From Melaminivora suipulveris (GTDB lineage: Bacteria > Pseudomonadota > Gammaproteobacteria > Burkholderiales > Burkholderiaceae_C): DNA of 64,000 nucleotides. The notes under the pieces are model-generated. The model did not search any database. It was not told where the DNA came from and was given only the letters and a program-made list of their open reading frames with translations. The stretch's first letter is position 1, and every line of letters starts with the position of its first letter. Location of the stretch: positions 3,690,021-3,754,020 of the forward strand of contig NZ_CP027667.1 in the NCBI RefSeq assembly GCF_003008575.1. The letters run 5' to 3'. Position numbers and translations under genes: made by a program. Of the stretch, positions 4,646 to 59,793 are shown in pieces.

Positions 4646-6385
4646 ATGGCATTGGTAGACATCAAGGTCCCGGACATCGGGGATTTCGACGAAGTCGGCG
4701 TGATCGAGGTGCTGGTCGCGCCCGGCGACAAGGTGCGCGTGGAGCAGTCGCTGATCACCGTGGAGTCGGACAAGGCTTCGATGGAGATTCCATCGAGCCA
4801 GGCCGGCGTGGTGCGCGAACTGAAAGTGCAGCTGGGCGACAAGGTCCGGGAGGGCTCGGTCATCCTGACGCTGGAGGTGGAAGGCGCCGATTCTGAACAA
4901 AAAGCCGCTTCAGCCGGCGAGAATCAAGCGCAGGATGCTATGAACGATGTAGCAAGTGAAGCTCCCGCATCCGCACCACAACCCGCCGCCAGCCCGGCGC
5001 CTGCGCCCGACGCCGCGCCTGCGCTGCTCGAGGTGCGCGTGCCCGACATCGGCGATTTCAAGGACGTGGCTGTCATCGAGATGCTGGTCGCCGTGGGCGA
5101 CACGGTGACGCTGGAGCAGTCGCTCTTTACCGTCGAGTCCGACAAGGCATCGATGGAAATCCCCAGCTCGGCCGAGGGCGTGATCCGCGAGATCCGCGTG
5201 GCCATCGGCGACAAGCTCAACACCGGCGATCTGGTGGCCATGGTCGAGGGTAAGCGCGAGCGCGGCGCGGCGCCGGCCGCAGCAGTGCAGTCGCCCGCTG
5301 CCGCGCCGCCTGCTCCGGCTGCTGCGCCTGCGCCGTCCGCCGCTGCCGCATCGGCCCAGGCTCCGGCTGCTGACCAGCCCGCGGCGCCGCCACCTGCTGC
5401 TGCGCCGCACCAGCCCGGCAGCCCAAGCGCCGGCTTGCCGCACGCCAGCCCCTCGGTGCGCAAGTTCGCGCGCGAGCTGGGCGTGCCGCTGGCGGAGGTC
5501 AAGGGCACGGGCGCCAAGGGCCGCATCACGCAGGAGGACGTGCAATCGTTCACCCGCGCGGTCATGGATGGCAGCACGCAGACGCAGGCCCAGGCGGCGC
5601 GCGCACCGGCGCCCGGCGCGGCATCCACCGGGGGCGCCGGGCTGGACCTGCTGCCCTGGCCCAAGGTGGACTTCGCCAAGTTCGGCCCCGTGGAGCGCAA
5701 GGAGCTTTCGCGCATCAAGAAGATCAGCGGCGCCAACCTGTCGCGCAACTGGGTCATGATCCCGCACGTCACCAACAACGACGAGGCGGACATCACCGAG
5801 CTGGAAGCCTTCCGCGTGCAGACCAACAAGGAAGGCGAGCGCGCCAAGAACCCCGTCAAGGTGACGATGCTGGCCTTCGTCATCAAGGCTGTCGTCTCCG
5901 CGTTGAAGAAGTTCCCCGAATTCAACGCCAGCCTCGATGGCGATGCGCTGGTCTACAAGCAGTACTTCCACGTCGGCTTTGCCGCCGACACACCCAATGG
6001 CCTGGTCGTGCCGGTGCTGAAAGACGCCGACCAAAAGGGCATCCTGCAAATCAGCCAGGAGATGGGCGAGCTGGCCAAGAAGGCGCGCGACGGCAAGCTG
6101 GGCATGGGCGACATGCAGGGCGGGTGCTTTTCGATCTCGTCGCTGGGCGGCATCGGTGGCACGCACTTCACGCCCATCATCAACGCGCCCGAGGTGGCCA
6201 TCCTGGGCCTTTCGCGCAGCGCCATGAAGCCCATCTGGAACGACGAGCGCGAGAAGTTCGAGCCGCGCCTGATGCTGCCGCTGTCGCTGTCGTACGACCA
6301 CCGCGTGATCGACGGCGCCGCCGCGGCGCGCTTCAACGCCTATCTGGGCCAGGTGCTGGCGGACTACCGCCGCATCCTGCTGTGA
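4646..6385 (+). CDS. aceF: Dihydrolipoamide acetyltransferase, E2 of pyruvate dehydrogenase
   Basis: This 579-residue E2 transfers acetyl groups from lipoamide to CoA and forms the core of the complex. Two lipoyl domains are seen, with lipoylated lysines at K43 and K167 in identical DKASMEIPSS motifs. They are followed by an Ala/Pro-rich linker, a peripheral-subunit-binding domain (about 267-304) and the catalytic domain (about 345-579). The catalytic motif DHRVIDG carries His552 and Asp556. The ATG at 4646 follows GGAGG. The linker between the two lipoyl domains (about residues 84-106) is unusual: it is encoded by a copy of the AT-rich dispersed repeat and has a composition (Gln, Asn, Ser, Met) unlike the adjoining Ala/Pro linker. 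The gene lies between aceE and lpdA in one operon. Confidence 0.98.
   Translation: MALVDIKVPDIGDFDEVGVIEVLVAPGDKVRVEQSLITVESDKASMEIPSSQAGVVRELKVQLGDKVREGSVILTLEVEGADSEQKAASAGENQAQDAMNDVASEAPASAPQPAASPAPAPDAAPALLEVRVPDIGDFKDVAVIEMLVAVGDTVTLEQSLFTVESDKASMEIPSSAEGVIREIRVAIGDKLNTGDLVAMVEGKRERGAAPAAAVQSPAAAPPAPAAAPAPSAAAASAQAPAADQPAAPPPAAAPHQPGSPSAGLPHASPSVRKFARELGVPLAEVKGTGAKGRITQEDVQSFTRAVMDGSTQTQAQAARAPAPGAASTGGAGLDLLPWPKVDFAKFGPVERKELSRIKKISGANLSRNWVMIPHVTNNDEADITELEAFRVQTNKEGERAKNPVKVTMLAFVIKAVVSALKKFPEFNASLDGDALVYKQYFHVGFAADTPNGLVVPVLKDADQKGILQISQEMGELAKKARDGKLGMGDMQGGCFSISSLGGIGGTHFTPIINAPEVAILGLSRSAMKPIWNDEREKFEPRLMLPLSLSYDHRVIDGAAAARFNAYLGQVLADYRRILL
4897..4953 (+). repeat. Dispersed AT-rich element, copy A (inside aceF)
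   Basis: The segment matches the family consensus used throughout this annotation: an A-run, then GCC, TTCAGYCGGCG, ATCAAGCGC, and GCTATnAA ending near a TAG. It is read in frame as part of the lipoyl-lipoyl linker of AceF. Frame: the codons run TCA-GCC-GGC ... CAA-GCG ... GCT-ATG. The second half (GATGTAGCAAG) is more diverged. Confidence 0.7.
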
Positions 6386-6405
6386 GCCACGAAGGGAGCA
6401 AGGAC

Positions 6406-8319
6406 ATGGCAGTGATCGACATCCAGGTGCCCGACATCGGCGACTTCGACGAGGTGGCGGTGATCGAAGTGCTGGTGCAGCCAGGCGACACCATCGAGGC
6501 AGAGCAGAGCCTGGTGACGGTGGAGAGCGACAAGGCTTCGATGGAAATTCCGTCCAGCCACGCCGGCGTGGTCAAGGAGTTGAAAGTCAAGCTGGGGGAC
6601 AAGGTGAAACAGGGCAGTGTGCTGCTGACGCTGGAGGCGGCTGAAGGGGCTGCGCCCTCATCCCAGCCTTCTCCCGCAAGCGGGCGAGGGAGCGAAAGCG
6701 CCGCGCCGCCTCCTTCTGCCTCTCCCGCCGGTGCAGGAGAGGGCAGAGGCGAGGGTGGGGCCGGCAGCGCTCCCCAACGCCCACCCTCACCCCGACCCTC
6801 TGCGGCAAGCGGGACAGGGAGCGAGTACAGCGGCGCGGTTGACGCGGACTGCGAAGTCCTGGTCCTCGGCGGCGGTCCCGGCGGCTATTCGGCCGCCTTT
6901 CGCGCCGCCGACCTGGGTCTGAAAGTCGTGCTGGTCGAGCGCTACGCCACGCTCGGCGGCGTGTGCCTGAACGTCGGCTGCATCCCCTCCAAGGCGCTGC
7001 TGCACGTCGCGGCGGTCATGGATGAAGTCAGCCACCTGAAAAGCGCAGGCATCGACTTCGGCGCGCCGCAGGTCAACGTGGACCAACTGCGCAGCCACAA
7101 GGACAAGGTCATCGGCAGGCTGACCGGGGGTCTGGCGCAAATGGCCAGGATGCGCAAGGTCACGGTGCTGCGCGGCGTGGGCCTGTTCGTCGGCAGCCAC
7201 CACCTGCAGGTCGAGGAGACCACCGGCGGTGGGCAGGACAGGACCGGTGCCAAGAAGGTCGTGCAGTTCCAGCGCGCCATCATCGCCGCCGGCAGCCAGG
7301 CCGTGCGCCTGCCCTTCATGCCCGACGATCCGCGCGTGGTCGACTCCACCGGCGCGCTGGCGCTCAAGGAAGTGCCCAAACGCATGCTGATCCTGGGCGG
7401 CGGCATCATCGGCCTGGAAATGGGCACGGTGTACTCCACGCTGGGCGCGCGCCTGGACGTGGTGGAGATGCTGGATGGCCTGATGCAGGGCGCTGACCGC
7501 GACCTGGTCAAGGTCTGGCAGAAGATGAATGCGCCGCGCTTCGACAACATCATGCTGAACACCAAGACGGTGGGCGCCGAGGCGACGGCGGAGGGCATCA
7601 AGGTGAGTTTCGCCGCGGCCCAGGAGGGCGGCAAAGCGCCCGAACCGCAGACCTACGACCTGGTGCTGCAGGCCGTGGGCCGCACGCCCAATGGCAGGAA
7701 AATCGGCGCCGAGGCGGCCGGCGTGGCGGTGAGCGAACGCGGCTTCATCGACGTGGACGTGCAGATGCGCACCAACGTGGCGCACATCTTCGCCATCGGC
7801 GACATCGTCGGCCAGCCCATGCTGGCGCACAAGGCGGTGCATGAGGCGCATGTCGCAGCCGAGGCCATCGCCGGCGAACTGAAGGGCGACGAGAAACTCG
7901 CCAGGTCCGCGTTCGACGCCCGCGTCATCCCCAGCGTGGCCTACACCGACCCCGAGGTCGCCTGGGTGGGACTCACCGAGGACCAGGCCAAGGCACAGGG
8001 CATCAAGGTCAAGAAGGGCCTGTTCCCCTGGGCCGCTTCCGGCCGGGCCATCGCCAATGGCCGCGACGAGGGCTTCACCAAGCTGCTGTTCGACGACTCG
8101 CCCGAGGCCGGCGGCCACGGCCGCATCCTGGGCGGCGGCATCGTCGGCACGCACGCCGGCGACATGATCGGCGAGATCGCCCTGGCCATCGAGATGGGCG
8201 CCGACAGCGTGGACATTGGCAAGACCATCCACCCGCATCCCACGCTGGGCGAGAGCATCGGCATGGCCGCCGAGGTGGCGCACGGCTCGTGCACCGACGT
8301 GCCGCCGCAGAGAAGGTAG
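6406..8319 (+). CDS. lpdA: Dihydrolipoyl dehydrogenase (E3) with N-terminal lipoyl domain
   Basis: This 637-residue flavoenzyme reoxidises dihydrolipoyl groups of the pyruvate dehydrogenase complex with NAD+. An N-terminal lipoyl domain (about 1-78, lipoyl Lys43 in DKASMEIPSS) is fused to the E3 core, an arrangement known in Neisseria and other betaproteobacteria. The core starts with the FAD motif GGGPGG (about 155-160), has the redox-active cysteines C187 and C192 in GGVCLNVGC, an NAD-binding GGGIIG motif, and the C-terminal active-site His611/Glu616 pair in HPTLGE. The ATG at 6406 is chosen because it follows AGGGAGCAAGG and begins the lipoyl domain. The linker (about 80-147) is very unusual because it is encoded by palindromic repeat DNA, described separately. 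Confidence 0.97.
   Translation: MAVIDIQVPDIGDFDEVAVIEVLVQPGDTIEAEQSLVTVESDKASMEIPSSHAGVVKELKVKLGDKVKQGSVLLTLEAAEGAAPSSQPSPASGRGSESAAPPPSASPAGAGEGRGEGGAGSAPQRPPSPRPSAASGTGSEYSGAVDADCEVLVLGGGPGGYSAAFRAADLGLKVVLVERYATLGGVCLNVGCIPSKALLHVAAVMDEVSHLKSAGIDFGAPQVNVDQLRSHKDKVIGRLTGGLAQMARMRKVTVLRGVGLFVGSHHLQVEETTGGGQDRTGAKKVVQFQRAIIAAGSQAVRLPFMPDDPRVVDSTGALALKEVPKRMLILGGGIIGLEMGTVYSTLGARLDVVEMLDGLMQGADRDLVKVWQKMNAPRFDNIMLNTKTVGAEATAEGIKVSFAAAQEGGKAPEPQTYDLVLQAVGRTPNGRKIGAEAAGVAVSERGFIDVDVQMRTNVAHIFAIGDIVGQPMLAHKAVHEAHVAAEAIAGELKGDEKLARSAFDARVIPSVAYTDPEVAWVGLTEDQAKAQGIKVKKGLFPWAASGRAIANGRDEGFTKLLFDDSPEAGGHGRILGGGIVGTHAGDMIGEIALAIEMGADSVDIGKTIHPHPTLGESIGMAAEVAHGSCTDVPPQRR
6655..6822. repeat. Three copies of a CCCTC-type palindromic repeat forming the lpdA linker
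   Basis: Three related units are visible: 6655-6693 (forward), 6717-6761 (inverted) and 6781-6822 (forward). Each has a CCCTCA/CACC arm, a CCCTCTCCCGC-like stem and a GCGGGnGAGGGAGC-like return arm, so each unit can fold into a hairpin. I know very similar units as intergenic repeats of proteobacteria. Here they lie wholly inside a reading frame and give the repeated peptide flavour PSPASGRGSE / PRPSAASGTGSE. Confidence 0.8.
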
Positions 8320-8349
8320 CCTTTGCTCGCGCTATGAAAAGCAGAGCGT

Positions 8350-8385
8350 GCCGCGCATGTTCCACCAGGGCTGCGCGGCTTTTTC
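8350..8385 (+). terminator. Rho-independent terminator of the aceE-aceF-lpdA operon
   Basis: A perfect 7-bp inverted repeat, GCCGCGC at 8350-8356 and GCGCGGC at 8373-8379, is followed directly by a run of five T. It lies 30 bases after the lpdA stop codon and before the next gene. Confidence 0.8.
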
Positions 8386-8415
8386 ATGCCTGAGGCAGTT
8401 TTTTCGAGAGGATTT

Positions 8416-9312: not shown

Positions 9313-9328
9313 AACGGCGTTTTCTAGG

Positions 9329-9383
9329 AAAAAGCGGTGTCAGTCGGCGTAGATCAATCGCAGGCAGCTATCAAAATAATAGT
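9329..9383 (+). repeat. Dispersed AT-rich element, copy B
   Basis: An intergenic copy between the convergent dehydrogenase (stop 9312) and M14 peptidase (stop 9393) genes. It shows the A-run, GTCAGTCGGCGTAGATCAA, a short GC segment, GGCAGCTATCAAAATAATAG. Confidence 0.85.
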
Positions 9384-9392
9384 GCCCGCGGC

Positions 9393-11174: not shown

Positions 11175-11238
11175 GGCGTGCAAGCTTGAATGGTCCCGCG
11201 CGCAATGGTAGTCGGCGCAGGGCGGGCTCCCTTGCAAG

Positions 11239-13053: not shown

Positions 13054-13088
13054 GTGGATGGATGCGCCCGTCCGGGGCGCCGGGTTCC

Positions 13089-18991: not shown

Positions 18992-19165
18992 TCAGGGGTT
19001 CACTGTGACGGTGCCGCGTATGCCGGCCTGGTAGTGGCCGGCGATGCCCCAGGGCTGTTGCAAGGCCGGGGTGCCGGCGCCGTGGTGGCCGGTAGCGCCG
19101 TGGGCAAAAGAGGCGCCAGCGCCCGCCAGCAGGGCGCTGGCTGCTATCCATTGGAAAGCGTTCAT
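18992..19165 (-). pseudogene. Truncated cupredoxin-family protein
   Basis: The frame gives 57 residues from MNAFQWIAAS. It has a signal peptide, the HGATGHHGAG start of the mature protein and a PWGIAG segment followed by GTVTV, which is how small periplasmic cupredoxins of proteobacterial copper operons begin. In such proteins about 90 more residues follow and hold all copper ligands (His, Cys, His, Met). Here a stop comes after VTVNP and the DUF411 gene begins 28 bases later. The copper-binding half is therefore missing, most simply by an internal deletion. It could still be expressed as a tiny His-rich secreted peptide. Confidence 0.6.
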
Positions 19166-20343: not shown

Positions 20344-20431
20344 GGCGTTGGGCGGGTGGCAGAGGCCGATTGCACCGCGCGCGCCATGCCCACGTCTTGA
20401 GCTGCATCAAGCATCGGCGCTTTGCCTCGTA

Positions 20432-20485
20432 CTATCAAAAAAATAGCTAGAGGCGATTGATGCACGCCGGATCAGGCCGTTTTTC
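20432..20485 (-). repeat. Dispersed AT-rich element, copy C
   Basis: Reverse orientation: CTATCAAAAAAATAGCTAG, then GCGATTGATGCACGCCGG, then AGGCCG and a T-run. It lies between the YitT gene and the DUF3703 stop codon; the stop (20484-20486) falls at the T-run edge of the element. Confidence 0.85.
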
Positions 20486-20912
20486 AATGGATTTCGTCGC
20501 TGGCGGCGGGCTCAGCGCCCTGGCCGACCGCCGCCAGCGCCTGGCTGATGCGCTCGCGCACCGCCGCGCTGGGCACCATGGCGCGGAACGCCGGCACGAT
20601 GGCGCGGCCGGTGTTGCCCTGCGGCATGCGGCGCACCAGGTGGCCCAGCGGGGTGAGGCCCAGACGCGCCCATTGCCCGCGCGTCTCGAAGCCGTCCCGC
20701 AGTTGGCGCGCGAAGGCCAGCATGCGCCAGTGCGCACGCCAGTGCAGCGCCAGGCGGTTCTGGCCAATCACGTGCGCCGCCTCCAGGTACAGCCAGCGCT
20801 CCAGCGGCGGCTGGTGCGCGCTGGCGTCGAAGGCGGCCAGCAGGTGCTCGAAGGCCAGGCGCTGTCGCTCGCGGCCGGCCGGGTTGGCGGGGGTCTTCAC
20901 ATACTGGGTCAT
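20484..20912 (-). CDS. DUF3703 family protein
   Basis: The 142-residue soluble protein shows the DUF3703 pattern: an N-terminal LAFEHLLAAFD helix, LYLEAAHVIGQ, HWRAHWRML, FETRGQWARLGLTPLGHL and RMPQGNTGRA. Members are typically encoded next to cation-efflux P-type ATPases and similar metal resistance genes. Here the ATG overlaps the ATPase stop by four bases (ATGA), so translation is coupled. The conserved His residues (in AAHVIGQ, ALHW and RAHW) could bind metal or a diiron centre; that is inference. The function is not established. Confidence 0.85.
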   Translation of the reverse strand: MTQYVKTPANPAGRERQRLAFEHLLAAFDASAHQPPLERWLYLEAAHVIGQNRLALHWRAHWRMLAFARQLRDGFETRGQWARLGLTPLGHLVRRMPQGNTGRAIVPAFRAMVPSAAVRERISQALAAVGQGAEPAASDEIH

Positions 20913-23452: not shown

Positions 23453-23458
23453 GCTGCG

Positions 23459-23514
23459 CTATTGTGTTGATAGCTACACACGCATGATCCACGGTGACTG
23501 AAGCCGTTTTTTGC
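23459..23514 (-). repeat. Dispersed AT-rich element, copy D
   Basis: Reverse orientation: CTATTGTGTTGATAGCTAC, then GCATGATCCACGGTGACTGAAG, then CCG and a run of six T. It begins about six bases after the merR stop and ends before the MlaE-like gene, so it could terminate merR transcription. Confidence 0.85.
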
Positions 23515-23542
23515 CACAATCTGGCCCGTTTTTGAGCCCATC

Positions 23543-29852: not shown

Positions 29853-29863
29853 GAATTTGGAAC

Positions 29864-29915
29864 GAAAAACCGCTTCAGTCGGCGTCAATCAAGCGCCGAG
29901 TGCTATGAATAAAGG
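29864..29915 (+). repeat. Dispersed AT-rich element, copy E
   Basis: Intergenic, between the dadA-like start and the rpsB promoter: AAAAACCGCTTCAGTCGGCG, then TCAATCAAGCGCC, then TGCTATGAATAAAG. Confidence 0.85.
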
Positions 29916-29978
29916 AGGGAAAAGTGGGCAGCCAGGCGGCCGTCTGGCCGGGCTGCCAGGGTTTGCCGGGGGCGGCTA

Positions 29979-35016: not shown

Positions 35017-36188
35017 CTCAGAACCTCACGGTCCTCGGCTCCACGGGCTCCATCGGCAAGAACACCCTGGACGTGGTGGCGCGCCACCCGGATCGCTACC
35101 GTGTCTTCGCCCTGAGCGCGGCCACGCAAGTGGATCTGCTGCTGGCGCAGTGCGCGGCTTTCGCGCCGCGCTATGCGGTCATGAGCAGCGCTGCGCACGC
35201 GCGCGAGCTGGCGCAAAAAATCAAGGCAAATAGCCTCTCAGTCGAAGTGTTGCAAGCGCCTGATGCTCTTGAAACAATAGCATCACACGACGAGGTGGAT
35301 GCCGTCATGGGCGCCATCGTCGGCGCCGCTGGCCTCAGCCCCTGCCTGGCGGCCGCGCGCGCCGGCAAGCGCCTGCTGCTGGCCAACAAGGAGGCGCTGG
35401 TGGTGGGCGGCGAGGTCTTCATGGCGGCGGTGCGCGAGGGCGGCGCCACCCTGCTGCCCATCGACAGCGAGCACTCGGCCATCTTCCAGAGCCTGCCCGA
35501 AGACCCGGCGACCTGGCCGCGGCGCGTGCAGCACGTGCTGCTGACGGCGTCCGGCGGGCCGTTTCGCACGCGCGCGCCGGACACGCTGCGCGACGTGACG
35601 CCGGCCGAGGCCTGCGCGCACCCCAATTTCTCCATGGGCCGCAAGATTTCCATCGATTCGGCCACCATGATGAACAAGGCGCTGGAGGTCATCGAGGCGC
35701 GCTGGCTGTTCGATCTGGCGCCCGAGCAAATCAAGGTCGTCATCCACCCGCAGCAGATCATCCATTCGATGGTGCAGTTCGTGGATGCCTCCGTCATCGC
35801 CCAGCTCGGCACGCCCGACATGCGCGTGCCCATCGCCTGCGGCCTGGCCTGGCCCGAGCGCGTGGCCAGCGGCGCCGCGGCGCTGGATTTCACGCAGCTG
35901 GCCGCGCTGACCTTCGAGGAGGCGGATGCGACGCGCTTTCCGGGCCTGCACCTGTCGTGGCAGGCGCTTCGCGCCGCGCCGGGCACGACGGCCGTACTCA
36001 ACGCCGCCAACGAAGTGGCCGTGGCGGCCTTTCTGGATGGCCGCATCCGCTTCGACCAGATCCACGGCGTGAACCTTGCAACTTTGGAGGCCGTGGTGCC
36101 GTCCAAGCCTGACAGCGTCCTGGCCCTGCTGGCGCTGGACGCGCAGGCGCGCGCTGCGGCCGACGGGCTGGTGCGGCGCCTGCAATAG
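35013..36188 (+). CDS. dxr: 1-deoxy-D-xylulose 5-phosphate reductoisomerase
   Basis: The 391-residue enzyme catalyses the second step of the MEP isoprenoid pathway. The NADPH loop LGSTGSIGKNTLDVV (about 8-22), LLANKEALVVGG, PIDSEHSAIFQ, LTASGGPFR and SMGRKISIDSATMMNKALE are all present. Residues about 68-90 are encoded by repeat copy F and use AT-rich codons unlike the rest of the gene, although the length agrees with E. coli Dxr at this point. The start is coupled to cdsA. Confidence 0.97.
   Translation: MTQNLTVLGSTGSIGKNTLDVVARHPDRYRVFALSAATQVDLLLAQCAAFAPRYAVMSSAAHARELAQKIKANSLSVEVLQAPDALETIASHDEVDAVMGAIVGAAGLSPCLAAARAGKRLLLANKEALVVGGEVFMAAVREGGATLLPIDSEHSAIFQSLPEDPATWPRRVQHVLLTASGGPFRTRAPDTLRDVTPAEACAHPNFSMGRKISIDSATMMNKALEVIEARWLFDLAPEQIKVVIHPQQIIHSMVQFVDASVIAQLGTPDMRVPIACGLAWPERVASGAAALDFTQLAALTFEEADATRFPGLHLSWQALRAAPGTTAVLNAANEVAVAAFLDGRIRFDQIHGVNLATLEAVVPSKPDSVLALLALDAQARAAADGLVRRLQ
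35214..35282 (+). repeat. Dispersed AT-rich element, copy F (inside dxr)
   Basis: The segment reads CAAAAAATCAAGG, AATAGCCTCTCAGTCGAAGTG, TTGCAAGCGCCTGATGCT and AAACAATAGC in order, with local base composition near 45% GC inside a gene of about 67%. It is in frame and gives the peptide NSLSVEVLQAPDALETIA. Confidence 0.75.
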
Positions 36189-36213
36189 ACGGCGGATGAG
36201 GCCGTACCGGGCA

Positions 36214-36276
36214 ACTTTTAGCCAAATCGGCCTTCAGCCGGCGTGGAACAAGCGCCGGCAGCTATGATTTTTATAG
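36214..36276 (+). repeat. Dispersed AT-rich element, copy G
   Basis: An intergenic copy between dxr and rseP. It is close to consensus: CTTTTAGCCAAATCGGCC, TTCAGCCGGCGTGGA, ACAAGCGCCGG and CAGCTATGATTTTTATAG. It ends 10 bases before the rseP ATG, so it occupies the rseP ribosome-binding region. Confidence 0.9.
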
Positions 36277-36286
36277 GGACGGCATC

Positions 36287-42856: not shown

Positions 42857-44017
42857 ATGCACAGCCCACCGCGCATCGCCCTGGTGGCCGGCGAGACGTC
42901 CGGCGACCTTCTCGCAGGCCTGCTGCTGGACGGGCTGCATGTCCAGTGGCCGCAGCTTGCCAGCTTCGGCATAGGCGGCCCGCGCATGACCGAGCGCGGC
43001 TTTGACGCCTGGTGGTCCAGCGAGCGCCTGGCCGTGCACGGCTACAGCGTTGAACTCGTGCGGCGGCTGTTGGGCATCGTGCAGATCCGCAAGCGGCTGC
43101 GCGCGCGGCTGCTGAGCGCCGACCGACCTCACGTCTTCATCGGCGTGGACGCCCCCGATTTCAACCTCGGCCTGGAGGCCGACCTGCGCCGCGCCGGCGT
43201 CAAGACGGTGCACTTCGTCTGCCCGTCCATCTGGGCCTGGCGCCCTGAGCGCGTGCACAAGATCCGCGCGGCGTGCGATCACGTGCTGTGCATCTTTCCC
43301 TTCGAGCCCGAACTGCTGGCGCGCCACGGCATCGCCGCCAGCTACGTCGGCCATCCGCTGGCGAACGTCATCCCCATGCAGCCCGACCGCGCGGGTGCGC
43401 GGCGCGCCCTGGGCCTGGATGGCGATGACGAGGTGCTGGCCATCCTGCCCGGCAGCCGCTCCGCCGAGGTGGCTTACCTGGCATCCACGTTCTTTCAGGC
43501 CGCAGCCCTGGTGAAACAAGCGCGTCCAGCTATCAAAATAGTAGTTCCAGCGGTGCCCGCGCTGCGCACGCGGCTGGAGCGCGCGGCGCGCGACTGCGGC
43601 ATGCAGGAGGCGATCACCCTTGTGGACGGCCAGTCGCACACTGTTCTCGCCGCCTGCGACGCGACGCTGATCGCCAGCGGCACGGCGACGCTGGAAGCAG
43701 CCTTGTTCAAGCGCCCCATGGTCATCGCCTACCGCATGCATCCGTGGAGCTGGCGCCTGATGCGCGGCAAGCAGTTGCAGCCCTGGGTGGGCCTGCCCAA
43801 CATCCTGTGCCGCGACTTCATTGTTCCCGAGCTGCTGCAGGACGCGGCCACGCCGCAGGCCCTGGCTGCCGCGGCGCTCGACTGGCTGGACGCCGCGCAG
43901 AGCGATCCGGCGCGGCTGGCCGCGCTGCACGACCGCTTCGCCGCGCTGCACGGGAGCCTGCGGCGCGACACCCCACGCCTTGCCGCCGATGCCGTGCGCA
44001 CACTTTTGGAGGCCTGA
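42857..44017 (+). CDS. lpxB: Lipid A disaccharide synthase
   Basis: The 386-residue glycosyltransferase joins UDP-2,3-diacylglucosamine and lipid X. Conserved parts are [18 protein letters not shown]-like [48 protein letters not shown] and [16 protein letters not shown] [12 protein letters not shown]. Residues about 214-230 come from repeat copy H and use the rare codons ATA and GTA, yet they align without any gap to a normal helix-strand of LpxB. rnhB follows at once. Confidence 0.97.
43498..43545 (+). repeat. Dispersed AT-rich element, copy H (inside lpxB)
   Basis: GGCCGCAGCCCTGGTGAAAC, then AAGCGCGTCCAGC, then TATCAAAATAGTAG. The right half is almost identical to the intergenic copies. 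It is in frame and gives [12 protein letters not shown]. Confidence 0.75.
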
Positions 44018-44624: not shown

Positions 44625-45454
44625 TGCCCACGCCCGCGCCGTTCATCCTCGTGCAGTCAGCCGGCAACGCGCTGGTCAAGGAGCTGCGCCGCCTCGCGCA
44701 CGACAGCACCGCCTATCGCAAGGCGGGCCGTGTCTGGGTCGAGGGAGACCACCTGTGCAGCGCGGCCCTGGCGCGTGGCCGCAAACCAGCCTTGGCGGTG
44801 TTTTCTGAGTCTTATTGGCCTCGGGTCGGCGTGGAATATACGCAAGCAGCTATGAAAAACATAGTGATTGCCGACGCGCTGTGGGCGGCCATCACCGCGC
44901 TGGAGTCGCCCGCCCATATGGGCTTCGTGCTCGATCTGCCGGGCGACGCGCGCCTTGTGCCCGATGCGCCCACCGTGGTGCTGGATCGGCTGCAGGACGC
45001 CGGCAACGTCGGCTCCATCCTGCGCAGCGCGGCAGCGTTCGGCTTTACACAGATAGCGGCCATCAAGGGCACGGCGGCGCTGTGGTCGCCCAAAGTGCTG
45101 CGCGCGGGCATGGGTGCGCACTTTGGGCTGCGGCTGGTGGAAGCGCTGGACGAGACGGCGCTGGCCGAGCAACTGCAGGTGCCGCTGCTGGCCACCAGCT
45201 CGCACCAGGGCGACCACCTGCACCGTGCAAAGCTGCCCTGGCCCTGCGGCTGGGTCCTGGGCCACGAGGGACAGGGCGTCTCGCCCACCCTGGAAGGGCG
45301 CGCGGCCCAGCGCATCCGCATCACGCAGCCGGGCGGCGAAGAGTCGCTGAACGTGGCGGCCGCCGCCGCCATCTGCCTGCACGCGAGCACGGCGGCACGC
45401 GCAGGCGCATCCGCAGGCCCGGCGTCCGGATGCGAAAGCGCCGCGCCGCCCTGA
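44624..45454 (+). CDS. TrmH/SpoU family RNA 2'-O-methyltransferase
   Basis: The 276-residue protein has an N-terminal L30e-like substrate-binding region (about 1-95) and a C-terminal SPOUT domain with a trefoil knot. The motifs are LDRLQDAGNVGSILRSAAAFG (motif 1, about 122), GWVLGHEGQGVS (motif 2) and GGEESLNVAAAAAI (motif 3). It is likely to methylate rRNA or tRNA; the exact nucleotide cannot be told. Residues about 60-81 in the linker between the domains are encoded by repeat copy I. It is the last gene of the lpx-rnhB run and is translationally coupled to rnhB. Confidence 0.9.
   Translation: MPTPAPFILVQSAGNALVKELRRLAHDSTAYRKAGRVWVEGDHLCSAALARGRKPALAVFSESYWPRVGVEYTQAAMKNIVIADALWAAITALESPAHMGFVLDLPGDARLVPDAPTVVLDRLQDAGNVGSILRSAAAFGFTQIAAIKGTAALWSPKVLRAGMGAHFGLRLVEALDETALAEQLQVPLLATSSHQGDHLHRAKLPWPCGWVLGHEGQGVSPTLEGRAAQRIRITQPGGEESLNVAAAAAICLHASTAARAGASAGPASGCESAAPP
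44801..44864 (+). repeat. Dispersed AT-rich element, copy I (inside the TrmH-family gene)
   Basis: TTTTCTGAGTCTTATTGGCC, then GGTCGGCGTGGAATATACGC, then AAGCAGCTATGAAAAACATAG. It is in frame and read as WPRVGVEYTQAAMKNIV, the same reading frame as in aceF, dxr and lpxB. Confidence 0.8.
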
Positions 45455-46620: not shown

Positions 46621-46696
46621 TGGTGCCGGAGAGAGGAATCGAACCCCCGACCTTCTCATTACGAATGAGCTGCTCTACCGACTGAGCTACTCCGGC
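46621..46696 (-). tRNA. tRNA-Thr(CGT)
   Basis: The 76-base cloverleaf on the minus strand has the acceptor stem GCCGGAG/CTCCGGC with an encoded CCA, a D arm AGCTCAGTCGGTAGAGC, an anticodon arm CTCATTCGTAATGAG with anticodon CGT, and the T arm GTCGGGGGTTCGATTCC. It reads ACG threonine codons. It lies between fbp and its own terminator. Confidence 0.97.
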
Positions 46697-47782: not shown

Positions 47783-50500
47783 TCAGTCGGCCAGGGCGCG
47801 TGTCACGACTTCGCGCACGTCATTGGACAGGCTGCCGGCGGCGGCCACGCGCGCCACGGCCTCGCGCGCTGCGCTGCGGTAGGGCTCGGCCAGTTTGCGC
47901 CAGCGGTCCAGCGAGCGCGCCAGGCGCGCCGCCACCTGGGCGTTGATGGCGTCGAGCTGCAACACCTGCTCGGCCCAGAAGGCGTAGCCGGCGCCATCGG
48001 CGCGGTGCAGGCCGGCCGGGTTGCCATTGCAGTAGCTGAAGATCACGCTGCGCGCACGGTTGGGGTTGTGCAGCGAGAAATCCGGGTGCTGCATCAGCTG
48101 GCGCACGACGGGCAGGACGTCACCGCCGCGGTCGGGCGCCATGGCCTGCAGGGCAAACCATTTGTCGATGACCAGCGCGTCGCCCTTGAACTGGGTGTGA
48201 AAGCGCTCCAGTGCCGGCTGCGCCAGATCGCTGCCGCTGCCCACCAGGGCGGACAGGGCGTTGATGCGGTCGGTCATGTTGCCCGCCACCTTGAAACGCT
48301 GGTAGGCCTTGCCTGGCCAGACCGCGTCGCCCTGCGCCTGCGCGGCCAAGCACAGCATGGCCAGCGCCGTGCCGGCCAGTGCGCGACGGCCGGCGCTGGC
48401 GGCATCGGGGCTGTAGGCGCCACTGTCCTGGTGCGCCTCGAAGGCCCATTGCCAGTCCGGCTGCAAGGCGACGGCCAACTCCAGGCGCAGCGCTTCGCGC
48501 ACGGCGTGCACGCGCTGGGGATCGACCTCGTCCAGCTGCTCGGCGATGTAGGCCTCGGAAGGCAGCGTCAGCACCAGATCCTTGAAAGCCGCATCGAGCT
48601 GCGGATGGCGCAGCACGCCGCGCAGTGCCTGTACCAGCGCCGGAGAGAGCAATTTCTGGCCAGAAGCGGCTTCAGTCGACGTGGATGAATGAGAGTCAGC
48701 TATATGTTTTGTAGCAACCCGCAGCATCAGCCGCTGCCCTGCTTCCCAGCGGTTGAAGGGGTCGCTGTCGTGGGCCAGCAGAAGCAGCAGATCCTCGTCG
48801 CTGTACTCGCAATCCAGGCAGACCGGAGCGCTGAAGGCGCGCAGCAGCGACGGCACGGGCGGCTGCGCCACGCCGGTGAAGGTCAGCGTCTGGCTGGCTT
48901 CGTGCAGCACGATGGTGCGCTCCGGGCCGCTCGCCTGAGCCTCACCGGCCAGCTGCAGGGGCAGGGCGCTGCCATCGCGCCCCAGCAGGCCCAGAGCCAC
49001 CGGGATGACGAAAGGCTGCTTGTCCGGCTGGCCGGGCGTGGGCGCGCAGCTTTGCGACAAGGTCAGGGTATAGGTCTGCGCAACGGCGTCGTAGTGCCCC
49101 TCGGCCTTGACGCGCGGCGTGCCGGCCTGTGAATACCAGCGTTTGAATTGCTCCAGGCGGTTGCCGAGCTCACTGCCCGGGTTGGCGTCCGCCATGGCCT
49201 GGGCGAAATCGTCGCAGGTCACGGCCTGGCCGTCGTGGCGCTCGAAGTACAGCTGCATGCCGCGCGCGAAGCCTTCACGCCCGACCAGGTTGTGCTGCAT
49301 GCGCACCACCTCGGCGCCCTTTTCGTAGATGGTGACGGTGTAGAAGTTGTTGATCTCGACGTAGCTGTCGGGCCGCACCGGGTGCGCCATGGGGCCGGCG
49401 TCCTCGGGGAACTGCACGGTGCGCAGCACGCGCACGTCCTCGATGCGCTTGACCGCGCGCGCCGATGCGCTGCCGGCCATGTCCATCGAGAACTCCTGAT
49501 CGCGGAACACCGTCAGCCCCTCCTTCAGGCTGAGCTGGAACCAGTCGCGGCAGGTGACGCGGTTGCCCGTCCAGTTGTGGAAGTACTCGTGCCCCACCAC
49601 CGATTCGACGTTGGCAAAATCCACGTCGGTGGCCGTCGCCTGGCTGGCCAGCACGTACTTGGTGTTGAAGACGTTCAGGCCCTTGTTCTCCATCGCGCCC
49701 ATGTTGAAGTCGCTGGTGGCGACGATCATGAAGCGTTCAAGGTCCAGCGGAAGGTTGAAGCGTGCCTCGTCCCAGGCGATGGACGCCATGAGCGAGTTCA
49801 TGGCGTGCTCGGTCTTTTGCAGGTCGCCCGCGCGCACCCAGACCTGCAGCAGGTGCTCGCCGCCGTTGCGGCTTTTGATCTTTTGCTCGCGCGCGACCAG
49901 CTTGCCGGCGACCAGGGCAAACAGATAGCTGGGCTTCTTGTGCGGGTCGTGCCAGCGGGCGAAGTGGCGGCCACCGTCGAGCTCGCCGGACTCCACCAGG
50001 TTGCCGTTGGATAGCAGCACCGGATACGCGGCCTTGTCCGCGCGCAGCAGCACGCTGTAGCTTGCCATGACGTCCGGGCGGTCCAGGAAGTAGGTGATGC
50101 GTCGAAAACCCTGCGCCTCGCACTGCGTGAAGAAGGTGCCCTCGCTCACGTACAAGCCCGACAGCTGCGTGTTCTTGACCGGCTGGCAGGTGGTGAAGAT
50201 CTCCAGCTCGAACGGCTCATGCCCCTCGGGCAGGTTCTCCAGCACCAGCTGGCCGCCGTCCATCTTGAACGAGGTGCCGGCGCCGTTGACCTGCACGCGC
50301 GCCAGATTCAGCTCCTCGCCATCCAGGCGCAGCGGCTGGGCCGGCACGTCGGGGTTGCGGCGCAGGCGCATCTTGCTCAGCACGCGCGTCTTGGCCGGGT
50401 CCAGATCGAAGGTGAGTTCCACCGTGTCGATCCAGTAGGCCGGCGGGCAGTAGTCCAGCCGATGCACGGCCGTGGCCGTCTGTCCTTCTCTCATCATCAT
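47783..50500 (-). CDS. pepN: Aminopeptidase N
   Basis: The roughly 905-residue M1 zinc aminopeptidase removes N-terminal residues from peptides. GAMENKG (about 268) binds the substrate N-terminus, and the zinc ligands are in HEYFHNW (about 304-310) with Glu327 in KEGLT. The length and the four-domain layout match E. coli PepN. Three adjacent ATG codons (50500, 50497, 50494) and one five codons upstream (50515) are possible starts. Residues about 594-616 in the C-terminal domain, rich in Ser, Thr and His, come from repeat copy J in antisense orientation. Confidence 0.96.
48651..48715 (+). repeat. Dispersed AT-rich element, copy J (inside pepN, antisense)
   Basis: On the plus strand: AATTTCTGGCCAGAAGCGGC, TTCAGTCGACGTGGATGAAT, GAGAGTCAGCTATATG and TTTTGTAGC. 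pepN is read on the other strand, giving [21 protein letters not shown], a segment rich in Ser/Thr/His and unlike the surrounding helices. Confidence 0.8.
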
Positions 50501-50546
50501 GGCAAATGCTTTCATCCAGGCCGCGCGCCCAGCGCGCGGGTGGGGG

Positions 50547-51651
50547 TTACAGGCCCTGCTTGAGGGAGGCTTCGATGAACGGGTCCAGGTCGCCGTCCAG
50601 CACCTTTTGCGTGGCCGAGATTTCGACGTTGGTGCGCAGATCCTTGATGCGGCTGTTGTCCAGCACGTAAGAGCGGATCTGGTGGCCCCAGCCGACGTCG
50701 GTCTTGGTGTCTTCCAGCTTTTGCTGCTCTTCCATGCGCTTGTGCATCTCCAGCTCATACAGCTTGGAGCGCAGGCGCTGCCAGGCCACGTCGCGGTTGC
50801 TGTGCTGGCTGCGGCCGTCCTGGCACTGCACCACGATGCCCGTGGGAATGTGCGTCAGGCGCACGGCCGAATCGGTCTTGTTGATGTGCTGGCCGCCAGC
50901 GCCGGAGGCGCGGAAGGTGTCGGTGCGCACGTCGGCCGGGTTGATGTCGATCTCGATGGAGTCGTCGATCTCCGGGTAGACGAACAGCGAGGCAAACGAA
51001 GTGTGGCGCCCGCCGGACGAATCAAAGGGCGACTTGCGCACCAGGCGGTGCACCCCCGTTTCGGTGCGCAGCAGGCCGTAGGCGTACTCGCCCTCGATGT
51101 GGATGGTCGCGCCCTTGATGCCGGCGATGTCGCCCGGCGTTTCATCGTCGACCGTGGCCTTGAAGCCCTTGCGCTCGGCGTAGCGCAAATATTGGCGCAG
51201 CAGCATGCCGGCCCAGTCGCAGGCTTCGGTGCCGCCGGCACCGGCCTGGATGTCGATGTAGCAGTTCAGCGGGTCGGCCTCGCGGCCGAACATGCGGCGG
51301 AACTCCAGCTCCTCGATCAGCGGCTGCAGCTTGGCTGCCTCGGCTTCGATGGCGGACAGGCCGGCGTCATCGTCCTCGTCGCGGCTCATCTCGAAGAGCT
51401 CGCTGTTGTCGGCCAGTTCGCTGGTCAGCTTTTGCAGCGTCAGCACCACGGCGTCGAGCGACTTCTTCTCCTTACCCAGCTCCTGCGCCTTCTTCGGGTC
51501 GTTCCAGACGGCCGGGTCTTCCAGCGACGCGTTTACCGTGCGCAGGCGTTCGTATTTGGCATCGTAGTCAAAGATACCTCCGTAATTCCTGAGTGCGCTC
51601 GCTCAGGTCTTCGAGGGTGTTTTCGATCTGGTTGATGCGTTCTGCTTCCAT
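50547..51651 (-). CDS. prfB: Peptide chain release factor 2 (programmed +1 frameshift)
   Basis: The first 27 codons (51651-51571) run from ATG to CTT and then meet TGA at 51570-51568. Slipping forward by one base (continuing with GAC at 51569) gives 367 residues in total. The main frame has the RF2 domain with [21 protein letters not shown] and the catalytic GGQ in [20 protein letters not shown]2 reads UGA and UAA, so its own UGA senses RF2 scarcity. The frameshift site is fully conserved compared with E. coli. The gene is 46 bases upstream of pepN. Confidence 0.97.
51567..51582 (-). promoter_or_regulatory. prfB +1 programmed frameshift site
   Basis: On the minus strand: the internal Shine-Dalgarno-like CGGAGG (51577-51582), then TAT, CTT, TGA and C. 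This is the classical arrangement, with the SD-like motif three bases before the slippery CTT-TGA-C. Confidence 0.97.
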
Positions 51652-53200: not shown

Positions 53201-53267
53201 GCCGGCCACCTCCGCAGACCTCGCCCGCCCGTGCCTGTTGGCCGGCGGGCGCTCCTGGAACCACCCC

Positions 53268-56098: not shown

Positions 56099-56107
56099 GC
56101 GTCTCGA

Positions 56108-56163
56108 ACTACAAAAACAATAGCTAGAGACGCTTTAAATAAGCCGACTGAAGGCTGTTTTTA
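56108..56163 (-). repeat. Dispersed AT-rich element, copy K
   Basis: Reverse orientation: CTACAAAAACAATAGCTAG, then GCTTTAAATAAGCCGACTG, then AAGGC and a T-run. Overlapping it is a perfect GCGTCTC/GAGACGC dyad (56099-56105 and 56127-56133). It lies between two convergent genes and the hydrolase stop (56161-56163) is inside its T-run. Confidence 0.85.
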
Positions 56164-57078
56164 TTCTGAAACGAAGTCTTCGATCAGCTTGGCCACCACC
56201 TGCGGCTGGTCGTGGTGCAGCATGTGGCCGGCATCCTGCACCTGCACCGTTCGCGCACCGCGCACGTGCGCCAGGCGCCGGTGGTACTCGGCCAGGGTGA
56301 ACTTGTCCTTCCAGTGCGCCAGGCTCCCGCCCTCGGCTTCGACCGACAGCACGGGCGCCTCGATGGCCGCGTACAGGGCATTGGCCTCGTCCACGCGGTA
56401 CAGGTAGGGGTTGACGACCTTGTGCGCCGCATCGCCCAGGATGGCCCAGCGGCCATCCGCGTCCGGCGCAGCCCAGTGGCGCGCCAGCCAGGCGGCCTTG
56501 TCGGCACCGATGCGCGGGTTGGTCTTCATCAGGCGCTGCGCCACGCCTTCGACGTCGCCATAGGTCTTGAGATCCAGCTCGCCGCGCTCCAGCTGGCGCA
56601 GCTCGTCCATCCACTGCGCGTAGCGCTTGCCGGCCTGCGTCGCCTTGGTGGCGGGCAGGCCGAAGCCCTCCAGGTTCACCAGCCGGCGGATGCGTTGCGG
56701 GCGCACGCCGGCATACAGCATCGCTATGTTGCCGCCCATGCTGTGGCCGACCAGATCGACCGGCTGGTCGCCGGCGTAGTGCTGCAGCAGCTGGTCCAGA
56801 TCGCCCAGGTAGTCGGCGAACACGTAGGTGTCCACCGGCGCCGCAAGGCGTGTGTGGCCGAAGCCGCGCCAGTCCGGCGCGATGGTGGTGCGCCGGCCCG
56901 CAAAGGCGGCGCTGAACGCATCGACGGCGAACTGCCACGACGCGCCCACGTCCATCCAGCCGTGCAGCAGCACCAGCGGTGGCGTATCGCCCTGCGCGTC
57001 GCCCCACAGGCGCACGTGGTAGTCGAGCGTTCGGATGCGCACGCTCTCGGTGCGCGCGGTGCGTTGGGGTTGGTACAT
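56161..57078 (-). CDS. Alpha/beta hydrolase
   Basis: The 305-residue protein has the alpha/beta hydrolase fold: oxyanion HG (about 39-40 in LLHGWMD), APDWRGFGHT, nucleophile Ser113 in GHSMGG, and a C-terminal catalytic His (about 285) in DAGHMLHHDQP. The acid position seems to be Glu rather than Asp (SVEAEGG). It lacks a signal peptide. It is probably an esterase or epoxide/haloalkane-type hydrolase; the substrate is unknown. It is convergent with the ABC importer. Confidence 0.88.
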   Translation of the reverse strand: MYQPQRTARTESVRIRTLDYHVRLWGDAQGDTPPLVLLHGWMDVGASWQFAVDAFSAAFAGRRTTIAPDWRGFGHTRLAAPVDTYVFADYLGDLDQLLQHYAGDQPVDLVGHSMGGNIAMLYAGVRPQRIRRLVNLEGFGLPATKATQAGKRYAQWMDELRQLERGELDLKTYGDVEGVAQRLMKTNPRIGADKAAWLARHWAAPDADGRWAILGDAAHKVVNPYLYRVDEANALYAAIEAPVLSVEAEGGSLAHWKDKFTLAEYHRRLAHVRGARTVQVQDAGHMLHHDQPQVVAKLIEDFVSE

Positions 57079-57143
57079 GAGGCGATTATTCGCGCACCGT
57101 GGCCGCGCATTCAGTCAAGCCTGGGACAGCAAGGGCGCGCTAT

Positions 57144-57761: not shown

Positions 57762-57795
57762 GGTGGTCCTTGTAGTGGATGAACAAAGCAGGCGC

Positions 57796-58524
57796 TTACC
57801 AGGGCTCCAACCAGGGGCGCACCTCGGTCTCGTGCGTCCAGGCGTCGCGCGGCTGGCGGTGCAGCTGCCAGTACAGCTCGGCGATGTGCTCGGGATCGAC
57901 GATGCCGCCCTGGTCGCGCAGCGCGTAGCGCTCGGGAAAGGTGTTGCGGATGAACTCGGTGTCGATGGCGCCGTCGATGATGGGATGCGCCACATGGATG
58001 CCCTTGGGCCACAGCTCGCGTGCCATGCTCTGCGCCAGCGCCCGCAGCGCGTGCTTGGCGCCGGCGAACGCGGCAAAGCCCTCGCGCCCGCGCAAGCTGG
58101 CCGTGGCCCCGGTGAAGACGATGGTGCCGCGCCCGCGCGGCAGCATGACGCGGGCGGCTTCCCGGCCCATCAGAAAGCCGGCAAAGCAGGCCATCTCCCA
58201 GACCTTGAAGTACACCCGCGCCGTGGTCTCGGTGATGGGGAAGCGCACGTTGGCGCCGATGTTGAACACCGCCACCTCGATGGGCGCGATCTCGGCTTCA
58301 ATGCGCTGCACCAGGGCGACCATCTCGTCCTCCTTGCGCGCGTCGCTGGCGAAGCCGTGCGCCTGCCCGCCTTCGCGGGTGATCTGGTCCAGCAGCGGCT
58401 GCAGCTTGTCGGCGCTGCGTCGCGTCACGCAGGCGATGTAGCCCTCGCGTGCGAAACGCCGGGCGATGGCGCCGCCGGTGGCATCGCCGGCGCCGATGAC
58501 GAGGATGGCTTTTTTGTCGGTCAT
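57796..58524 (-). CDS. Short-chain dehydrogenase-like protein lacking the catalytic Tyr
   Basis: The 242-residue protein has an SDR Rossmann fold with LVIGAGDATGGAIARRFA at the start (an altered glycine motif) and VFNIGANVRF (the NNAG region). The catalytic YxxxK is FAGAK here (Phe153, Lys157) and the usual Ser, 13 residues before, is Ala140. Relatives that I recall in Burkholderiales share this. It may have lost the dehydrogenase reaction or act on another substrate. The HCCA isomerase-like gene follows on the same strand. Confidence 0.85.
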   Translation of the reverse strand: MTDKKAILVIGAGDATGGAIARRFAREGYIACVTRRSADKLQPLLDQITREGGQAHGFASDARKEDEMVALVQRIEAEIAPIEVAVFNIGANVRFPITETTARVYFKVWEMACFAGFLMGREAARVMLPRGRGTIVFTGATASLRGREGFAAFAGAKHALRALAQSMARELWPKGIHVAHPIIDGAIDTEFIRNTFPERYALRDQGGIVDPEHIAELYWQLHRQPRDAWTHETEVRPWLEPW

Positions 58525-58648
58525 GGGGGTCCTTCAGGGTCGTGTCTGCGCCTCAGCGGCCGGCGCAGTCTGGCACCTTGCACGGTGGCGCGGAAGTCTC
58601 GCATGCGTCACCTGCGAGGCGCGCAGCCTGCGCCTACACTTGCCCGCC

Positions 58649-59728
58649 ATGAATGAAATTGCCGCCTTCCCCCTCGTTCAGCTCGGCCAGAGCGACCTGC
58701 GCGTGACCCCGATTTGCCTGGGCACCATGACCTTCGGCGAGCAGGTGGACGAGCCCACCGCCCACGCCATCCTGGACCGCGCCGTCGAGCGCGGCGTGAA
58801 CTTCCTCGACACGGCCGAGATGTACGCCGTGCCGGCGCGCCGCGAGACCTGCGGCGCGACCGAGACCATCATCGGCCGCTGGCTCACCGCGCGTCCCGGC
58901 ATGCGCCAGCGGCTGGTGCTGGCCACCAAGGTCGCCGGCCCCTCGCGCGGCATGCCGTGGGTGCGAAACGGCCTGGGCATGACGGCGGCGGACATCGCAG
59001 CCTCTTGCGAAGGCAGCCTGCGGCGGCTGCGGACCGACGTCATCGACCTCTACCAGATCCATTGGCCCGAGCGGCATGTGCCGGCCTTCGGCCAGCTCTA
59101 CTACGACCCGGCCAAGGAGAAGAGCGAGACGCCGATCCACGAGCAGCTCCAAGCGCTGGGCCGCCTGGTGCGCGCCGGCAAGGTGCGCCACATCGGCCTG
59201 TCCAATGAGACACCCTGGGGCGTGCACGAGTTCGTGCGGCTGGCCGAGCAGCACGGCCTGCCGCGCGTGGCTACCGTGCAAAACCCGTATGGCCTGCTCA
59301 ACCGCAGTTGGGACAACGCCCTGGACGAGACCTGCCACCGGCTGGGCGTGTCGCTGCTGGCGTATTCGCCGCTGGGCTTTGGCTTGCTGACGGGCAAGTA
59401 CGACCAGCACGCGCCCACCGACCGTGGTGCGCAGCAGGACGCGCGCATCGCCAGGTTCGAGTCGGTGCGCAAGCAGCGCTGGGGCCGGCCCGAGGCGTTG
59501 GCCGGCGCGCGCCGCTACAACCAGCTGGCGCGGGACCATGGCCTGACGCCCACGCAACTGGCGCTGGCGTTTTGCTACCGCAGCTGGCGCGTGGCCAGCA
59601 CCATCATCGGCGTGACCACGCTGGCCCAGCTCGACGAGAACCTGGACGCCTGGAGCGTGCAACTGGTGCCCGAGCTGCTGGCCGAGATCGACGCCATCCG
59701 CTGGCAATGGCGCGACCCGGCGCAGTGA
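58649..59728 (+). CDS. Aldo/keto reductase, Tas-like
   Basis: The 359-residue NADP(H)-dependent enzyme has the AKR tetrad: Asp and Tyr in NFLDTAEMY, Lys in LATKVAG and His in YQIHWPER. The nucleotide-binding segment IGVTTLAQLDENL lies near the C-terminus. Length, the MYAVP and YYDP insertions, and EMYAVPARRET match E. coli Tas. It is divergent from the SDR gene and is followed by repeat copy L. Confidence 0.93.
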   Translation: MNEIAAFPLVQLGQSDLRVTPICLGTMTFGEQVDEPTAHAILDRAVERGVNFLDTAEMYAVPARRETCGATETIIGRWLTARPGMRQRLVLATKVAGPSRGMPWVRNGLGMTAADIAASCEGSLRRLRTDVIDLYQIHWPERHVPAFGQLYYDPAKEKSETPIHEQLQALGRLVRAGKVRHIGLSNETPWGVHEFVRLAEQHGLPRVATVQNPYGLLNRSWDNALDETCHRLGVSLLAYSPLGFGLLTGKYDQHAPTDRGAQQDARIARFESVRKQRWGRPEALAGARRYNQLARDHGLTPTQLALAFCYRSWRVASTIIGVTTLAQLDENLDAWSVQLVPELLAEIDAIRWQWRDPAQ

Positions 59729-59734
59729 GTTTTC

Positions 59735-59793
59735 AGGCAAAAAGTGCCTTCAGCCGGCGTGGATCAAGCGCGGGCAGCTATCAAATTTGATGT
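59735..59793 (+). repeat. Dispersed AT-rich element, copy L
   Basis: The most consensus-like intergenic copy: CAAAAAGTGCC, TTCAGCCGGCGTGGATC, AAGCGCGGGCAGC and TATCAAATTTGATG. It fills almost the whole gap between the aldo/keto reductase stop and the ybaK start. Confidence 0.92.

Follow-up and report, generated by a model that had tools for sequence, protein, structure and literature searches.

The window analysed here, the final 64 kb of the 3,754,020-bp single-contig genome of Melaminivora suipulveris (coded G000), carries a dispersed repeat of about 65 bp that lies both within and between genes, among them dxr, lpxB, a SpoU-family methylase gene (spoU) and an M1 peptidase gene. A preliminary description of the window had listed 12 copies. 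All 12 places carry one 65-bp sequence on the strands named there (Table 1). A matrix trained outside the window, on 61 copies drawn from 400 kb of the rest of the chromosome, gives them 44.5-75.4 bits, whereas the best score in 20 triplet-shuffled windows is 10.8 bits, with one match above 5 bits in total. The claim of a single sequence family in 12 dispersed copies is thus borne out. The next-best places in the window score 22.5 bits (8331-8395, reverse strand), which is a possible degraded thirteenth copy absent from the earlier list, and 10.1 bits (19095-19159, forward strand). The rseP-like gene beside dxr is named from its HEYGH motif and its position alone.

Table 1. Copies of the repeat in the 64-kb window, scored with the matrix trained outside it
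Copy	Position (strand)	Bits	Setting	Pfam match of gene	Same site elsewhere
1	4889..4953 (+)	58.0	sense, within dihydrolipoamide acyltransferase-type gene 4646-6385 (+)	2-oxoacid_dh	
possible degraded copy	8331..8395 (-)	22.5 (24.0 with in-sample matrix)			
2	9319..9383 (+)	74.7	intergenic, convergent gene ends on either side		
3	20431..20495 (-)	63.5	12-bp overlap with gene end		G001, G004; not G008
4	23458..23522 (-)	68.0	intergenic		G001, G004, G008
5	29854..29918 (+)	65.7	intergenic		G001, G003, G004
6	35217..35281 (+)	51.9	inside dxr, sense	DXP_reductoisom	12 of 67 named loci; 4 of 4 close genomes
7	36213..36277 (+)	75.4	spacer between dxr and rseP-like gene		
8	43481..43545 (+)	44.5	inside lpxB 42857-44017 (+), sense	LpxB	13 of 75 named loci
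9	44801..44865 (+)	58.6	inside SpoU-family methylase gene, sense	SpoU_methylase	16 of 71 named loci
10	48651..48715 (+)	56.3	inside M1 peptidase gene 47783-50758 (-), antisense	Peptidase_M1	G001, G004
11	56108..56172 (-)	70.2	12-bp overlap with gene end		relatives without comparable flanks
12	59729..59793 (+)	73.4	directly after aldo/keto reductase-type gene 58466-59728 (+), fills spacer	Aldo_ket_red	G001, G004

Structure and abundance of the repeat

In 53 aligned copies, the information content steps up sharply at position 2 and is gone by about position 70, and the flanks show no conservation. The length of 55-65 bp proposed earlier is therefore corrected to about 65-70 bp, with sharp edges. 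Conservation is strongest at T3-T5, an A4 tract at positions 12-15 (T4 in some copies), GGCC, CAG, TCGGCGT and AA at 38-39, followed on the right side by AGCTAT at 48-53, a run of only A or T at 56-58, and TAGC at 62-65. Two or three weakly conserved bases separate AA/GCG from AGCTAT. The modules recognised in the preliminary description belong to a real family, while their order is amended to T3, A4/T4, GGCC, CAG, TCGGCGT, AA, GCG, the two or three weak bases, AGCTAT, the A/T run and TAGC. The mean GC content of 74 copies is 47%, against 69% for the window. Some positions take A or T nearly equally, which suggests that the shape of the DNA may be read there.

The repeat is not confined to the window. 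Twenty evenly spaced 20-kb stretches of the chromosome hold 54 copies above 8 bits, 53 above 15 bits and 51 above 30 bits, while the reversed matrix and five column-permuted matrices gave no match in the same 400 kb, a strong excess over controls. From 53 copies per 400 kb, the genome total is about 500. The 17-mer CGGCGTGGATCAAGCGC, with up to two mismatches, has 90 + 91 occurrences in G000 and one when read backwards, and a model built from the 12 window copies (R1) gives 150 matches there, these being the best 150 of 2635 candidates. The density of one copy per 5 kb claimed earlier describes the window (12 in 64 kb); genome-wide, the copies are sparser, at about one per 7.5 kb. The best-matching pair among 74 copies is 83% identical, and none of the 2701 pairs reaches 90%.

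Biases in orientation and spacing had also been proposed for examination. The two orientations are about equally frequent (15/15 and 16/15 in the chromosome halves), and the spacing bias falls short of significance when the 20 stretches are taken together (P 0.07). Compared with random intergenic placement, even spacing has P values of 0.10 and 0.12, and a P of 0.001 is obtained only after the post hoc removal of two stretches that lie in copy-free islands (see below).

To place the copies, genes were called ab initio in 464 kb (coding fraction 0.85) that hold 65 copies; one of the 54 sample matches, which scored below 15 bits, was left out. Forty copies are intergenic, 15 reach 1-42 bases into the end of a gene, and 10 lie wholly in genes, in one phase throughout, six of them sense and four antisense. 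Convergent spacers hold 13 copies and divergent spacers four; in tandem spacers, 21 copies run along the gene direction and 15 are opposed to it, and two copies have no right neighbour in their stretch.

Fixed sites and changing spelling in related genomes

The model R1 matches 20 of 60 genomes, all of them among the 36 genomes of the same family, 17 with at least 10 matches; there were no matches in 24 genomes representing 24 other families of the order. A second model, R2, was derived from 49 copies taken from several genomes. Of 150 family genomes it matches 64, with at least 20 matches (among the best 35 scored) in 43 of them and 1-10 in 21. Two motif-less genomes gave no match in 60 kb each. 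The distribution is patchy even within genera, as Comamonas koreensis (L074) has no match and Acidovorax sp. CF316 (L093) no site. The name Comamonadaceae rests on the titles of named records of the lpxA neighbourhood; the motif was found in such records, in agreement with the mention in the preliminary description of similar sequences in other members of this family.

Comparison with four close genomes was possible for nine of the 12 copies in the window, and in 26 of 29 site-genome pairs the relative holds a copy above 12 bits in its own dialect, a count that leaves out three window copies without comparable flanks and one pair with flanks 1.5 kb apart. When five genomes were compared all against all, 115 of 121 pairs were common, four ambiguous and two empty, where pairs are counted by direction and some overlapping calls, 39 bp apart between dxr and rseP, are among them. 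One of the two empty sites is 55 bp shorter. The spacer between dxr and rseP in G003, G004 and G008 holds two such overlapping calls in each case, possibly a double copy.

While the sites stay in place, the spelling does not. AGCTAT is constant, and the middle varies by genome: TCGGCGT in G000, GCCCttat...AtgGGC in G001, ACCCTT...AAGCGC in G004, and GCGCtt...AAGCGC in G003, G008 and G019. A classifier of the middle part trained on other stretches assigned 12 of 12 copies from G000 and 11 of 14 from G004 correctly, and leave-one-out classification did so for 11 of 13 copies from G001. Judged by these spellings, genome-specific dialects are clear in three of the five genomes. Fixed sites with jointly shifting spelling would point to one trans-acting reader behind the motif set. 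In G007, several copies end in GCTCC...GGAGC in place of GCTAT...ATAGC.

The sites within lpxB, dxr and spoU were compared across 80 lpxA neighbourhoods from named records. With motif-bearing and motif-less orthologues pooled, the segments align without gaps in 68 of 79 lpxB, 65 of 68 dxr and 39 of 72 spoU orthologues. A motif above 10 bits occupies the same site in the same orientation in the 13 lpxB, 12 dxr and 16 spoU loci counted in Table 1, in none of them with an insertion or deletion. At least one in-gene site occurs in 16 loci, the records with such sites including Acidovorax, Comamonas, Paenacidovorax, Simplicispira and Polaromonas; where lpxB, dxr and spoU are all readable (56 loci), 11 loci have all three sites, four have one or two and 41 have none. 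Compared with motif-less loci whose flanks could be aligned to within 120 bp, the site in G000 is of equal length within 6 bp in 36 of 36 cases for dxr, 47 of 55 for lpxB and 8 of 11 for spoU.

The codons that make up the motif also differ from those around them. Mean GC content at third codon positions (GC3) is 0.42-0.46 for the motif codons against 0.75-0.83 for the host genes lpxB, dxr and spoU, whereas the same contrast in motif-less loci is 0.79-0.81 against 0.70-0.79; two dxr loci that score 0-10 are left out of it. The drop is seen in all motif-bearing loci (13 of 13 lpxB, 12 of 12 dxr and 16 of 16 spoU). Such AT-ending codons within high-GC3 genes indicate that it is the DNA sequence, and not the peptide, that is conserved at the in-gene sites. 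The dxr site of Variovorax sp. J22G73 (L081) has the right end of the motif only (3.6 bits); it is a possible relic, and a remnant of this kind would fit the loss of an older motif.

Between dxr and rseP, the spacer measures 98-344 bp in seven copy-bearing loci and -10 to 83 bp in 64 copy-less ones.

Two of the 20 sampled stretches are copy-free, and their GC content is the lowest of the set (0.64 and 0.58). Proteins from these stretches, ten of which were searched, include a transposase, a replication initiator and a ParB-like protein, besides ArsA, Kdp proteins, DUF932 and DUF3363, the last with a relaxase match below threshold. The islands were picked for fine mapping after the gaps had been seen; the runs without a copy above 12 bits extend over 1155243-1251723 (96 kb) and 1381382-1435745 (54 kb) of G000, where 13.5 and 7.6 copies would be expected, and the second bears kdp genes. 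The motif is thus missing from two foreign-looking islands that carry mobile-element genes. A plasmid control, in which a 151-bp blastn search gave no match, was dropped.

A putative DNA uptake sequence

Genome-wide excess, stable sites, conservation of DNA within genes, dialects, absence from islands and a lower density in two relatives with a split or undetected comEC (see below) are hallmarks of DNA uptake sequences, and the repeat is probably an undescribed, unusually long sequence of this kind, belonging to a group of Comamonadaceae. The motif would be bound at the cell surface by a DNA receptor belonging to the type IV pilus or competence machinery, and cells would preferentially import motif-tagged DNA of their own kind. 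Recombination of the imported DNA into the chromosome would then keep the tags at fixed places through biased uptake, while a change of the receptor would lead the whole motif set to change its spelling together.

Neisseriaceae and Pasteurellaceae are stated to be the only families known to take up DNA by such tags (PMC12616744). The uptake signal sequences (USS) of Pasteurellaceae, of Hin and Apl types, did not arise as insertions and have AT-rich flanks, and Haemophilus ducreyi has weak USS together with broken competence genes (PMC1626085). The motif resembles them in its core with AT-rich tracts, its origin within genes without insertion, its clade-specific spelling, and possibly a weakness where competence genes are broken, as in H. 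ducreyi; USS differ from it in their 9-bp core and total length of about 30 bp, in that 65% of H. influenzae USS are coding, and in that their uptake has been demonstrated (PMC1626085). No likeness in sequence between the two was noted. With the DNA uptake sequences (DUS) of Neisseriaceae the motif shares a genome-wide excess and dialects around a constant inner core, whereas DUS are 10-12 nt long, occur in about 900-5900 copies, and have a demonstrated function and receptor, ComP (PMC3630211). Since it is about 65 bp long and of different sequence, and does not have the 9-12 nt core of known sequence that marks these families, the motif is assigned to neither DUS nor USS. Integrative and conjugative elements have been detected through an atypical distribution of DUS (PMC7371117).

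G000 has matches to comEC, pilB and dprA, and encodes a pilin of the GspH/FimT class and a weak one of the ComP_DUS class. A search for comEC in the 36 family genomes gave no match in three, namely G002 (840 contigs), G012 (65% complete) and G020; dprA was likewise not found in G002. In G007, comEC is in three pieces in different frames (C1:1836740-1837544, reverse strand; loci L218-L221 and L278-L282), a break that may stem from an error in sequencing. There are nine copies above 30 bits in 180 kb of G007 and two in 47.6 kb of G002, against 98 in 574 kb of six genomes with intact comEC. This lower density of strong copies has P values of 3e-5 (G007) and 0.015 (G002), and of 0.0014 and 0.035, respectively, when the comparison is made with G006 and G014 only, which were not used in model training. 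Across the 36 genomes, a full-strength motif is found in none of the four without intact comEC and in 16 of the 32 with it (Fisher P 0.11).

A ComP-like pilin of the type seen in G008 is found at 66-77% identity in G003, G004, G007, G014 and G019, while G000 and G001, whose dialects look the most shifted, have only distant pilins (best 36% and 46%). A 43% relative is present in G022, where the search for the motif gave no copy. This pattern is no more than a lead and could equally speak against ComP as the reader. The presence of a ComP_DUS-class pilin was set aside as a discriminator, since 54 of 60 genomes have one. Two pilin genes are adjacent in G000 and G001 (L228:3378-4378 and L229:4254-5266), one of the ComP_DUS class (weak) and one of the GspH/FimT class (by Pfam, in G000); the G008-type pilin was not seen at these loci.

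Several observations weigh against an uptake function. The zero count among the four genomes without intact comEC is soft, because G007 still has at least 35 matches by R2, and this, together with the Fisher P value, lowers the confidence given above. G008 has only nine strong copies per 100 kb with its comEC intact, the motif is missing from many other genomes with intact comEC, and ComP_DUS pilins occur whether or not a genome bears the motif. G003 (7 of 16 copies correct, seven being assigned to G004) and G008 (5 of 10) are not separated by dialect. No clear copy was seen at 30 pilB loci, four of which have weak matches of 14-19 bits, and the pilBC donor of PMC4212676 may lack the motif, the loci examined being from species other than Verminephrobacter eiseniae. 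Most copies are intergenic, with only 10 of 65 wholly in genes, and the copy between dxr and rseP accompanies a spacer about 70 bp longer than that of sister genera, which fits a gain of about 70 bp. Finally, the motif, at about 65 bp, is far longer than the 9-12 nt core of known uptake sequences.

The balance is slightly in favour of a further step, namely that this would be a third family with an independently evolved system of tagged uptake. Its signal would be a multi-part one of 65 bp, partly read by shape, made up of a T-tract and an A-tract, a dialect-bearing variable middle, and the constant core AGCTAT, mirrored in an ATAGC end. Dialects that split species of one genus would act as a recombination barrier and help to define species. 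A third, independent case would make convergence testable, and the motif would serve as a simple mark, within the genome itself, of foreign islands and of gene flow in a family that is common in the environment. It would also offer a molecular cause for the finding that Acidovorax temperans is transformed only by DNA of its own species, which was reported together with selective uptake in V. eiseniae; the available part of that report gives no motif for this selectivity (PMC4212676). With dialects differing at shared sites inside one genus, the joint change of motif and reader would become open to direct test.

Alternative explanations and other repeats

The main alternative, which we consider unlikely, is that the repeat is a chromosome-wide binding site for a chromosome-organising, segregation or nucleoid protein of the clade, selected site by site. 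Stable sites, conservation at the DNA level, A/T tracts, positions that take A or T, and absence from islands would also be expected of such a site. However, the dialects differ at shared sites within one genus, and it is hard to see how selection site by site could respell hundreds of copies; nor does a chromosomal protein predict that copies are sparser in the two genomes whose comEC is split or was not found.

A non-autonomous mobile repeat, either a miniature inverted-repeat transposable element or one of the repetitive extragenic palindromic (REP) type, would have spread by copying and decayed in place. REP elements with their associated tyrosine transposases (RAYT) are small, present in many copies and mostly intergenic, and the motif is alike in all three respects. 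Its sharp edges 65-70 bp apart, the empty site that is 55 bp shorter, and the longer dxr-rseP spacer in the presence of a copy would all be in keeping with insertion, although a spacer that is too short cannot hold a copy in any case. Unlike REP elements, the motif has no RAYT-type match in G000, no supported hairpin and conserved in-gene sites. The RAYT-type Y1 transposase family PF01797 is present in 43 of the 60 genomes searched and has no match in G000, which upholds the earlier statement that the repeat has no transposase link. The low identity of even the best pair of copies, the length-neutral in-gene sites common to several genera, the near-random positions amid strongly kept ones, and the dialects at shared sites all make copying very improbable as an explanation. 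The mobile element was rejected as the main account, which leaves the dxr-rseP spacer without an explanation.

Much the same small probability is given to another self-marking motif, such as a Chi-like recombination signal or a signal of exemption from defence. Absence from foreign-looking islands and a spread over the whole chromosome would suit it. Chi-like signals have a strand bias, and Chi is far shorter than 65 bp, whereas the motif has no strand bias and is far longer.

That the repeat is an expressed hairpin or a transcription terminator is barely credible despite the many copies close behind stop codons and a reverse reading as a short stem with a T-run, since the consensus folds without pairs (pairing is barely above shuffles, 38 of 500 of which reach the same), covariation of the right and left arms within six genomes does not exceed that of shuffles, the window has no Rfam match except one tRNA, and copies lie within genes on both strands and on either strand of tandem spacers. 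The middle arms covary weakly in two of the six genomes (P 0.02 and 0.01). An RNA hairpin or terminator was rejected for want of a fold and of covariation between the right and left arms. The view of the repeat as a mobile or expressed hairpin unit, put forward in the preliminary description, is thus not retained, given the lack of Y1/RAYT matches in G000, of near-identical copies and of a fold, and the length-neutral in-gene sites; yet a gain of about 70 bp does seem to have taken place at one intergenic site.

The two nearest named repeats are set apart from the motif by their descriptions. BRE is likewise a dispersed repeat of Comamonadaceae, and of Bordetella, that is sometimes found inside genes, but it is about 90 bp long, 69% GC and often tandem, with at most 29 listed copies per genome (PMC3110155), against 65-70 bp and 47% GC here. 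VeiPR1 of Verminephrobacter eiseniae, an abundant repeat of a Comamonadaceae genome, is described as palindromic and unique to that species (PMC3975124). No published description of the motif was found in the open-access literature, subscription papers and theses being outside the search; this agrees with the earlier statement that no family description was known. The sequence of VeiPR1 is reportedly to be found in a thesis (Pinel, 2009).

Two further features of the window are ordinary. The tRNA gene at 46624-46696 (reverse strand) is the sole Rfam match at the gathering threshold. Direct repeats at 4667-4791, 5039-5163 and 6427-6551 are 74-78% identical, and the first two, in a gene with two Biotin_lipoyl stretches, are probably repeated lipoyl domains.
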